Source: a virus. From it: DNA of 44,873 nucleotides. This document shows positions 2,592 to 16,630 of this stretch, in pieces. The notes beneath the pieces are model-generated. The model was not told where the DNA came from. It worked only from the letters and a program-made list of their open reading frames with translations, and did not search any database. The stretch covers positions 1 to 44,873 of the IMG/VR virus record IMGVR_UViG_3300034063_000843; one strand, given 5' to 3'. The translations under genes were made by a program, and so were the position numbers. The stretch's first letter is position 1, and each line of letters begins with the position of its first letter.

Positions 2592-3242
2592 TCAATGATT
2601 GTCAACTAAGACATCAGTACTGTTTGCTGCATCTAAATTCCATCCAACAGAAGCACCGCTGTTAAAGACAAAACTTCCACTGGCTGTAGATTGAACAACT
2701 ACGGCTCTGCGGGCAGTTAATTTTTTAACCCAATAAGTACTTCCATTTCCATCTGTTGCAAGAATATTCATCTGACCTGCAACTAGTTGATCTGTATTAG
2801 TACTGACTAATCTTGCTACATCTGTACCATTTGCTGTTTGAACACGGTATTTTTTACTTGCTACCTGTTCGTCGATGTCTGCAACTAATGCAGAACCGCC
2901 TGTTAAAAATGCAGTAGCACGAATAACGTTGCTTACGCTAGTTGTTAATGTAGCAGTTGCACTTCCAATAACACTCATACTAGTTCCAGTAAACGAAACT
3001 GATGGTACTGTTAGGTATCCAGATCCTGCAGAATCTACTGTTACGCTTGTTACTGTGTTTCCAGTTTTTACAGCAGTACCAGCAGCAGTTGTTCCGCCCG
3101 GCAAGTCCGGTGCACTGAAAACAACGGTAACTGTTAATGTAGATTCAGGGTTTGTTCCAAGTGTAACTAAACTAACACCTTCACCACCTGTACCTGTTCC
3201 TTTAGGTACTCCGAAATATTTTGATTTAATAGGACGTCCCAT
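2592..3242 (-). CDS. Small virion protein after gp23, candidate head decoration protein
   Basis: This 216-residue protein begins 'MGRPIKSKYFGVPKGTGTGG', a start shared with small virion proteins in marine T4-like phages. The ATG follows AAGGAG at good spacing. Residues about 65-100 contain a 'GSGYLTVPSVSFTG' module of the Gly-Tyr type also found in the giant protein at the other end of the window. The C-terminal half has 'YWVKKLTARRAVVV' and ends in 'WNLDAANSTDVLVDNH'. The sequence is Ser/Thr/Val-rich and beta-like, with no membrane segment. It lies alone between two strong terminators directly after the major capsid gene, with its own late-type promoter box. A capsid-surface role is likely but rests on position and composition. 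Confidence 0.6.
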   Translation of the reverse strand: MGRPIKSKYFGVPKGTGTGGEGVSLVTLGTNPESTLTVTVVFSAPDLPGGTTAAGTAVKTGNTVTSVTVDSAGSGYLTVPSVSFTGTSMSVIGSATATLTTSVSNVIRATAFLTGGSALVADIDEQVASKKYRVQTANGTDVARLVSTNTDQLVAGQMNILATDGNGSTYWVKKLTARRAVVVQSTASGSFVFNSGASVGWNLDAANSTDVLVDNH

Positions 3243-3312
3243 TTGTTTTTCTCCTTATATTTGGCGTTCTAGGCCATACGCGGTTGGACCTCCGCATAAT
3301 ACTCTAGACTCT

Positions 3313-3321
3313 GTATTTAAT
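3313..3321 (-). promoter_or_regulatory. Late-promoter-like box ATTAAATAC
   Basis: Read leftward, ATTAAATAC lies immediately after the gp23 terminator and 70 bases before the ATG of the 216-residue protein. A promoter is required here because transcription from gp23 should end just upstream. The word resembles the box before the gp48-like gene (TTAAATAC). Confidence 0.45.
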
Positions 3322-14242: not shown

Positions 14243-15733
14243 TCAAGGAGTAGTAGGTTGATTAGATCTCTTCGATAATACGTTATTTACTGTTTTTTGA
14301 ATACTTTGTAAATCTCGTAATCTTAAAATTTTAATTGCTTGATTAATTTGAGCCACAGTAAGTTTTGTAGATGGCTGACTTGATGTTTGAGATACCGGTG
14401 AAGATTGAGTTGATGCAATATTCATAGATTGAAAAGTTGACGAAATAATAGAATCGTCAACTCCGGCATTTTTTAAAATATCAGCAATAGCATTGCTGTC
14501 TGTCGGACTTCCTGCCGCCTTCCATGCTTTCATTAACTTATCGGCGGTAATTTTAGTAGTTAAATTTGAACCAAATTGTTTAATTGTATCTGCAATACCT
14601 TCTTGAACTAGATATTTTCTATCTACAGTATAGAATATTTTTTTAATTTGTTGAAAAGATAAACTTTCCGGCGTTGATTGCTGCGTTGGTTTTTGATTTC
14701 CAACCGCACCTGTAACAGCGCCTTGTGCAGCCACTGCCAAAGCGTCAGACGCAGCCATTACACTTTTAGCACCATCTACAATTGCTTGTCTTGCATTTTC
14801 ATCTTGTGCTAATTGAGCAGCATAACCAGGATCGGCTAATTTGGCTGCTGCATCTTTTGCCTGCTGAAACAATGCTTCTGCTTGACTATATTGACCGTTC
14901 CTCCAAGCCTCTGCTGCTTGATTCCATGCACCACGTATAGGTTCTAAATCTTCAGGTTTGCCTATTACATCTCGTAAATTTTGAAATGTAGAAGGTCCCG
15001 TACCACTAACCATAAAGGAAAGATTAAGTCTACGTGCCCCAGGAAATAAGTTATCAGCAACCATTTTTAACCCACTGCCTAAGAAATCTCCAATTTTATC
15101 AATACTCCAACCGGCTAAAGCACCAACTGCGGCTGCTTTAGCACCCTTGCCAATTGCAGTCGAAAGTTTTTCACCTTTCATTAATTCAGTAGTGCCTCTC
15201 AGTATTTGACCTGCGATAGCACCACCTAAAGGTCCTCCTGCTAATGATGCCACAGCAGTTAATACACCAATAATTACTGCGGTTTTTCCAGGATTTGCTT
15301 TAGCCCATTCTCCTGCTTGAGTTAAGTTTTGAGTTAAATTTGGAAACTTAGAACTAATCTTTGCTTTTAGTTCTTCAAATTTTTGATCAAACGCCTGTAC
15401 AGGTTTAGTGTTTTGCGCCCACTGCCCTGCTTTGTTAATAATATCGTTAACTTTTTGAACTGCTTGGACAGGCAATTTTGCAACATCTACGGCTTTTCCC
15501 AATCCAGTTCTGTTAGATCCACTAGCAGTTGCTGATTGCTCTACATTTTTAAATAATTGAGATATTTGATCTGTAGTTAATGTTGCTTCAATTAAAGGTA
15601 AAAACTCTCTATGTATTCTTTTAATTATTGTATTTTGTTCTTCAGTCAAACCTCGGCATATATTCTCTAAGAGAATTCGGCTTTCGTTTAATTTTTCTTC
15701 TACAATTAATCTTTGAGAAAAAGTTAAAGGCAT
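14243..15733 (-). CDS. Glycine-zipper virion structural protein
   Basis: This 496-residue protein is counted from ATG at 15733; a GTG four codons upstream is in frame but gives no better ribosome site. A helical N-terminus ('SQRLIVEEKLNESRILLENI') is followed by a long amphipathic region. Residues about 145-205 are a hydrophobic Gly/Ala-rich segment ('VIIGVLTAVASLAGGPLGGA' then 'IAGQILRG') that looks able to insert in a membrane. A region 'EAWRNGQYSQAEALFQQAKD' resembles a TPR-like helix pair. The last 39 residues repeat the 'QINQAI..LR.RDLQS' module of the next gene. A TATAAATA late box lies 22 bases upstream. It is likely a late internal or ejected virion protein; no enzymatic motif was seen. 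Confidence 0.6.
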   Translation of the reverse strand: MPLTFSQRLIVEEKLNESRILLENICRGLTEEQNTIIKRIHREFLPLIEATLTTDQISQLFKNVEQSATASGSNRTGLGKAVDVAKLPVQAVQKVNDIINKAGQWAQNTKPVQAFDQKFEELKAKISSKFPNLTQNLTQAGEWAKANPGKTAVIIGVLTAVASLAGGPLGGAIAGQILRGTTELMKGEKLSTAIGKGAKAAAVGALAGWSIDKIGDFLGSGLKMVADNLFPGARRLNLSFMVSGTGPSTFQNLRDVIGKPEDLEPIRGAWNQAAEAWRNGQYSQAEALFQQAKDAAAKLADPGYAAQLAQDENARQAIVDGAKSVMAASDALAVAAQGAVTGAVGNQKPTQQSTPESLSFQQIKKIFYTVDRKYLVQEGIADTIKQFGSNLTTKITADKLMKAWKAAGSPTDSNAIADILKNAGVDDSIISSTFQSMNIASTQSSPVSQTSSQPSTKLTVAQINQAIKILRLRDLQSIQKTVNNVLSKRSNQPTTP

Positions 15734-15755
15734 AATTTTATCCACTCTATATCAC

Positions 15756-15763
15756 TATTTATA
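15756..15763 (-). promoter_or_regulatory. Perfect T4-type late promoter TATAAATA
   Basis: TATAAATA on the minus strand exactly matches the T4 late consensus and lies 22 bases before the ATG at 15733. It follows immediately after a 6-bp hairpin (15765-15770 with 15774-15779) that closes the structured region. It should drive the 496- and 236-residue protein genes. Confidence 0.75.
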
Positions 15764-16204
15764 AACGAACTGCGTTCGTATGCTTCTTCGTCTAAGGACT
15801 CGAAGCATATTTAGATAGTTAAGAGAGATATATCATCTAGATTAAGTGGTCACTCTTTGCCCGAGCAGGGCAAAAAAATAACTGAACATCATCTGAGTTG
15901 CACAGTCACATAGCATTACTGCATTACAGTGGCGGTCGACCGGTACCACGAGCAGCGTCTTTATTCGACGGCAGGAGCATCTAGGCATGCTATCACCTAT
16001 ATGTCCGTTAGGGAATTACCCTTCTTTTTGCCTATTCAATCCTCTTCAAACAACCAAATCGCAGGGCTTAGTAGCGATCCTCATCCTTTCGGGTAGTGGT
16101 TGAGTACTCACAGCGGCGAGAGTTTTCCGTTCCCTGCGATCCGAGATCCAGGTATTGGGCATAAGAAATTAGCCTACGCTGAGCCTTTACCGCTTAAAAG
16201 TGCC
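15764..16204 (-). ncRNA. Candidate large structured RNA, family not recognised
   Basis: This roughly 440-base stretch has stops in the frames examined, no ribosome site and clearly higher GC than the genes on both sides. Helices visible: 16058-16066 with 16132-16140 (ATCGCAGGG, 9 bp, enclosing a sub-domain); CC-GAAA-GG tetraloop hairpin at 16085-16092; 15929-15935 with 15940-15949 (GTGG/CCAC plus CGG/CCG around TCGA); 15856-15862 with 15868-15874 (TTTGCCC, 7 bp); 15801-15807 with 15781-15790 (bulged); and 15765-15770 with 15774-15779. Palindromes lie at 16101-16110 and 15835-15842. The strand is chosen because both flanking genes read leftward and the GNRA loop forms on that strand. I found no tmRNA, RNase P, SRP, group I intron or tRNA signature. 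It could instead be a long structured leader or a processed 3' end of the gp46 operon. Confidence 0.5.
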
Positions 16205-16630
16205 TTAAGATTTTAATATGTGTGAGCCATGGACACGGACTTGTATATGCCCGTTATAATATTCGTTTGTTTCTAAAACTCGCCTTGAAAATTGTTCTCT
16301 TGCCTCAATGTAACTGCATTCTGCTTTAGATTTACAAAAATAAAGTATTTCTCTTATAAAATTTTCTGTGCCTAGTTGTACTACATCTTTATTCAATTGT
16401 TCGTTTGAGCCATAATAATCTTGCCAGTCGCTGTCTATTTTGCTTCGAATTTTCTTTTTCTTTTTTGTGCCGTTCTTTAACTTTACAGTCTTGTAGGTCG
16501 TTTTACTAAATTTTGCCAATTTTTTGCCAATGTATTTTCTATTTGTTATTTTGTTAGTAATGATATAAACAAAGCCTACACAATCTTCGGGTAATTCTGT
16601 TATGGTATTATTTTGATATAGCCAAGTCAT
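16205..16630 (-). CDS. GIY-YIG family endonuclease-like protein
   Basis: In this 141-residue protein, 'GFVYIITNKITNRKYIGKK' (residues 19-37) is a GIY-YIG core of the Y-I-I/Y-I-G variant found in small phage nucleases. It is followed by 'SDWQDYYGSNEQLNKDVVQL', 'FIREILYFCKSKAECSYIEA' and 'YYNGHIQVRVHG'. The Arg after the second strand, the Glu in 'YIEAREQF' and the closing Asn are candidate catalytic residues. No DNA-binding module typical of homing endonucleases is appended, so it may be a stand-alone repair or structure-specific nuclease. It overlaps the upstream small gene by 23 bases and directly precedes the structured RNA candidate. Confidence 0.75.
   Translation of the reverse strand: MTWLYQNNTITELPEDCVGFVYIITNKITNRKYIGKKLAKFSKTTYKTVKLKNGTKKKKKIRSKIDSDWQDYYGSNEQLNKDVVQLGTENFIREILYFCKSKAECSYIEAREQFSRRVLETNEYYNGHIQVRVHGSHILKS

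Follow-up and report, generated by a model that had tools for sequence, protein, structure and literature searches.

What lies in the noncoding interval between a GIY-YIG gene and the next gene, probably for a virion protein, in this viral genome? We analyzed the entire 44,873-nt stretch of IMG/VR record IMGVR_UViG_3300034063_000843 (here called the window). A first-pass annotation, made from the letters alone, had picked out positions 15764 to 16204 as a GC-rich, stop-filled island that could encode a large, unrecognized structured RNA. We found that the description of the island was correct. Its GC content is 46%, compared with 34% for the window, and is reached in 22 of 889 sliding windows; its longest open frames are the same as those in shuffled sequence, which indicates that it is noncoding. 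We rejected a coding remnant because there is no frame and the indels do not come in threes. Elsewhere in the window, an open frame at 13522 to 14232 on the minus strand contains an array of AAPAAGTAP-like repeats and locally reaches 64% GC. ARAGORN detected neither a tRNA nor a tmRNA in the window.

The RNA is on the minus strand, in the same direction as the upstream GIY-YIG gene. When folded as a single sequence, this strand was marginally better than shuffled sequence (z, -1.74; 6/100), while the plus strand gave a z of -0.37. Helices drawn from one sequence are thus weak evidence, and the proof of structure has to be comparative. Our starting sample was 80 viral contigs gathered through homologous GIY-YIG genes. 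A profile search of these contigs showed that conservation runs for ~440 nt, three times the length of the Rfam model described below. Using nhmmer, we found 57 full-length homologues at first and later 115, which correspond to 89 nonredundant viral contigs. We tested these 89 sequences (mean identity, 64%) for covariation with our own implementation of a G-test with a tree-based null, rather than R-scape. There were 44 covarying column pairs at an E value of <1 and 28 at <0.05; 32 were Watson-Crick or wobble pairs, spread over the whole length. Independently of the tree-based test, RNAalifold on a 59-sequence alignment predicted 57 pairs, 39 of them with compensatory changes.

A structure model drawn by hand with pseudoknots contains 72 pairs in 14 helices (Table 1). 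P10 crosses both P11 and P12, and the conserved RNA ends with P15 on its 3' side. The covariation score of the model is 0.495, compared with 0.175 in shuffles, and 681 cells changed on both sides; shuffles gave 168 ± 13 such cells, and slid controls never exceeded 97. We rely on these compensatory counts, as the model was drawn with the sequences in view and its fraction of paired cells (94.3%) leans toward the model for that reason. We are nearly certain that a structured RNA is encoded on the minus strand at 15764 to 16194. The comparison thus bears out the large structured RNA that had been suggested, and the covariation in relatives that the first-pass annotation had named as a check is significant over the whole length. 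It also refutes one of the helices proposed at that stage, the 9-bp long-range helix 16058-16066/16132-16140, in which 67.8% of cells are paired, compared with 69.6% in shuffles. Two further candidates in the 5' domain that came from single covarying pairs, a P2 pseudoknot and a long P1 helix, were dropped, since too few of the sequences in alignment A1 conform to them. Beside P7, the noncanonical column pair 16093/16083 switches between U-C and C-U (61 and 27 sequences).

Table 1. Positions of the RNA, its structural elements, and its neighbors in the window
Feature	Position	Strand	Basis
Whole conserved RNA, ~430 nt	15764..16194	-	nhmmer homologues and covariation over full length
5' domain, RF01718 (Polynucleobacter-1)	16048..16184	-	cmscan, 101 bits, E 8e-21, full model
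3' core, most widely conserved part	15829..16007	-	Profile match in 163 sequences; not in Rfam
Helix P3 (16179-16175/16163-16159)	16159..16179	-	98.6% paired, 5/5 pairs compensatory
Helix P5 (16122-16119/16110-16107)	16107..16122	-	90.3% paired, 3/4 pairs compensatory
P6 (16102-16098/16055-16051) around P7 (16092-16091/16086-16085) and P8 (16078-16074/16062-16058)	16051..16102	-	98-99% paired; 8 pairs compensatory
Hairpin P9 (16003-15995/15986-15978), with loop 15993-15987 pairing with 15916-15910 as pseudoknot PK3	15910..16003	-	PK3 98.8% paired, 7/7 compensatory
Interlocked P10 (15969-15965/15939-15935), P11 (15956-15952/15922-15918), and P12 (15949-15946/15932-15929)	15918..15969	-	P10 99.7%, P11 93.2%, P12 98.3% paired; 8 pairs compensatory
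Direct repeat 1, AACTCAGATGATGTT	15885..15899	-	Identity covariation with repeat 2
Hairpin P13, separating repeats 1 and 2	15855..15875	-	89.8% paired; varied pairs in divergent set
Direct repeat 2, AATCTAGATGATATA	15829..15843	-	Identity covariation with repeat 1
3' hairpins P14 (15807-15802/15786-15781) and P15 (15780-15774/15770-15764)	15764..15807	-	P15 98.8% paired, 6/7 compensatory; P14 71.3% paired
T4-type late promoter of downstream gene, TATAAATA, outside the RNA	15756..15763	-	Sequence
SegE-type GIY-YIG protein gene (PF19835), upstream	16205..16630	-	Pfam E 1.3e-30
Variable gene, probably virion protein, downstream	14243..15745	-	Open frame

The RNA had been called unrecognized, which we found to be true of its 3' two-thirds and wrong for its 5' third. 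An Rfam search, also suggested in the first-pass annotation, matched a known family: cmscan aligned the 5' domain to positions 1 to 141 of the 141-position model of RF01718, "Polynucleobacter-1," at 101 bits against a gathering cutoff of 37 bits. RF01718 was also above the cutoff at 20 of 20 loci checked (69.5 to 121 bits), and its consensus helices, P3, P6, and P8, are kept with compensatory changes. The 5' third of the RNA therefore belongs to this orphan family, which was described in a 2010 survey whose table lists it for Burkholderiales and for fresh water/estuary (Weinberg 2010, PMC2864571). The RF01718 model is 141 nt long and free of pseudoknots, whereas the RNA here is ~430 nt long, combines twin repeats with a 3' core that contains pseudoknots, and is found in phages. 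The model implies an RNA that is complete within 141 nt, but covarying structure runs ~290 nt further. This continuation concerns the extent of the model and not the membership of the 5' domain. A second Rfam family in the window, RF02980 (freshwater-2, cis-regulatory type), matched 3240 to 3320 on the minus strand at 51.9 bits (cutoff, 49.9), and the match ends at an apparent start codon on that strand.

We found the RNA in many other phages. A pattern scan that was independent of the GIY-YIG gene was positive at 95 of 120 loci. At about one-third of the positive loci, nhmmer detected the 3' core alone, and in 10 such loci no Rfam family reached its gathering score. At most core-only loci, the core lies ~180 to 230 nt from the upstream gene, the same distance as elsewhere; judging from this spacing, these loci likely contain a diverged 5' domain. 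The core model, run over the full length of 37 contigs, was positive in 34, of which 33 have one RNA and one (G010) has two. Among named phages, BLAST found neither the window RNA nor two divergent versions of it, and the covariance model R1 found no RNA in four named relatives searched whole. The named phages with the nearest GIY-YIG gene are Methylophilales phages of the Kyanoviridae, and the RNA core is absent from the one such phage that was searched whole. Scanning bacterial genome contigs with the core pattern gave one clear match and no strong match in the rest. The matching contig (L230) is short, is binned in a Bacteroidetes MAG, and is probably a phage fragment; RF01718 had no match in four genomes reached from this search. 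We concluded that the structured RNA is common in freshwater T4-like phages. As far as the searched databases and literature show, its 3' two-thirds and the identity-covarying repeats described below are new.

In the window, the RNA sits at the end of a series of gp47/gp46 (SbcD/SbcC-like) and GIY-YIG genes and starts ~10 nt past the GIY-YIG stop codon. The gp46- and gp47-like genes are separated by a glycosyltransferase family 17 gene (PF04724; 18656 to 19486, minus strand). The last part of the GIY-YIG gene might contain a promoter, but its synonymous sites are not unusually conserved; no sigma-70-like site scored above chance. As a terminator, P15 would be weak, because it has no good U tract on the minus strand. 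The position just behind the GIY-YIG stop codon and the lack of a detected promoter of its own are what would be seen if the gp46/GIY-YIG operon mRNA simply ended in this structure, which would then stabilize or terminate the transcript and have no function in trans; in many contigs, moreover, P15 abuts the stop codon of a convergent gene. A length of 430 nt, pseudoknots, and sequence-matched repeats, however, go far beyond the needs of a terminator. In addition, several phages have genes inserted between the GIY-YIG gene and the RNA, and one paralogue is at another locus. We consider it unlikely that the RNA is simply an operon 3' end, although this explanation deserves to be kept in mind.

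For the neighbor on the other side, we found no Pfam or PHROG match. About half of the contigs have a codirectional next gene that starts within ~200 nt, and the RNA could act as the leader through which this virion gene is regulated in cis. The 2010 table entry for Polynucleobacter-1 suggested such a role with a cis-regulatory label of "y," which denotes probable and unproven (Weinberg 2010, PMC2864571). We found, however, that in all 44 contigs with a codirectional downstream gene, that gene is separated from the RNA by the TAAATA core of a late promoter. In another 23 contigs, the downstream gene is convergent, and only 2 of these have the TAAATA core. In the window itself, the terminal hairpin (15780-15764) directly adjoins the late promoter, as had been noted from the sequence. 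The RNA is thus not placed in the 5' UTR of a regulated gene, and we regard a leader function as very unlikely.

The upstream neighbor changes while the RNA stays: it is usually a GIY-YIG protein and sometimes a PD-(D/E)XK-looking protein. By eye, with no profile, we saw a PD-(D/E)XK-looking protein in place of GIY-YIG upstream of the core at six loci (L126, L117, L152, L190, L195, and L105), and L105 has, in addition, an RNase HI-like open frame between that gene and the RNA. Between the GIY-YIG gene and the RNA, six loci (L033, L039, L112, L121, L111, and L106) contain SGNH hydrolase-, sulfotransferase-, or methyltransferase-looking inserts. Because its neighbor is of the SegE-type GIY-YIG kind, or looks like PD-(D/E)XK in some phages, the RNA might be a ribozyme or an intron-like element that moves together with a homing endonuclease. 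We saw no interrupted host gene and no Rfam intron or ribozyme match. The RNA is often missing where a GIY-YIG gene is present, as in several viral contigs and all four named phages that were searched whole. We consider a ribozyme or mobile element very unlikely.

The 3' core contains a repeated module, located after the PK3 strand and again after P13, which consists of GTGAC, a short spacer, and X-A-(CTC or TCT)-r-G-A-T-r-A-w. CTC is always in repeat 1, and TCT is always in repeat 2. Of 156 loci that have both repeats, 155 have the same 7-mer behind CTC and TCT; since this search picks the best-matching pair, we relied instead on alignment-fixed columns. In these columns, the two copies agree at r1 in 88 of 89 sequences, at r2 in 88 of 89, and at w in 87 of 89, and all three agree in 26 of 26 sequences of the divergent set. 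Among 125 nonredundant phages, offsets -1 and +3 to +9 are identical between the copies in 124 to 125, and r1, r2, and w vary freely yet together (null identities of 0.50, 0.51, and 0.67, respectively). On a tree built with the repeats masked, we counted 31 joint changes at r1, 18 at r2, and 15 to 16 at w. Phage recombination may inflate these counts; a lower bound comes from the number of distinct matched 7-mers, which is at least 12. The two copies also share the rare changes seen at otherwise fixed positions (GCATAAT, AGTTGAA, TGGTAAT, and GAATGAT). To our knowledge, it is very unusual for two segments of one RNA to coevolve by identity and not by complementarity.

Because fixed differences lie right beside the matched segment, simple gene conversion is an unlikely cause of the identity. 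G010 is a 302-kb phage contig with two paralogous RNAs, L317 (165,915 to 166,081) and L318. One of its RNAs carries AGATGAA twice, and the other carries GCATGAA twice and scores 35.5 bits with RF01718, just below the cutoff. That the two RNAs differ and yet are each internally matched suggests that the identity constraint belongs to each RNA, a conclusion based on this one contig. We also considered mRNA-like repeats, in which a triplet followed by UAA/UGA recurs ~50 nt apart and recalls T4 gene 60 bypassing, and rejected them since no open frame fits. A complementary partner for the repeats was not found within the RNA and was not enriched within the fetched loci; seven larger contigs had none whose position was consistent by homology.

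Crossover regions typically need to be identical without having a set sequence, and the repeats might accordingly act as DNA, for example, as a recombination or replication site whose crossover sequences must match. The spacing between the repeats varies from 47 to 59 nt, though, which argues against a link by DNA phasing, and the two sites are too close for easy looping. The repeats are also inside an RNA with strong helical covariation, and a search for extra copies as DNA motifs gave no clear excess beyond the RNA. We therefore think that a DNA site has little chance of being the explanation.

We favor the view, with some confidence, that the locus encodes a standalone, probably trans-acting ~430-nt noncoding RNA of freshwater T4-like phages, with duplicated segments for an RNA-specific partner. 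According to this model, which was built from sequence comparison, the rigid pseudoknotted core would present both repeat segments, and one partner would read the sequence of both ~11-nt segments. The partner would be specific to each RNA, because the segments of the two RNAs in G010 differ from each other and match within each RNA. The likeliest mode appears to be base pairing to a nucleic acid target with a duplicated seed, which we would rank by analogy ahead of a coevolving protein dimer; with such pairing, the target of the RNA in the window would include AUCAUCU. Some bacterial regulatory RNAs carry two identical copies of one short seed, which is typically conserved. The RNA here similarly has two copies of one motif, but its motif is variable and matched within each RNA. 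The partner may be host encoded or a protein.

A bolder form of this trans-acting model is that the twin segments are guides. Phages would then have an RNA-guided system: each RNA would carry two copies of one short guide and would have its own target, and the effector would be the neighboring nuclease or a host protein. We hold this to be a long shot. Stated more cautiously, the twin segments may reflect a new kind of RNA constraint, identity between two segments, with a reader in trans.

GOLLD and ROOL are likewise large structured phage RNAs of unknown function, and we compare them with this RNA only as to how they might work. The RNA is about half the size of GOLLD, and the window has no tRNA gene. 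Neither GOLLD nor ROOL matched the window at the gathering score or 15600 to 16400 at E values up to 5. For this family, our results mean that the orphan RNA reported in 2010 is a fragment of a much larger, pseudoknotted phage RNA. Its full length and phage context change which function to look for, and its identity-matched segments make that function testable by single and double mutants of a simple kind.
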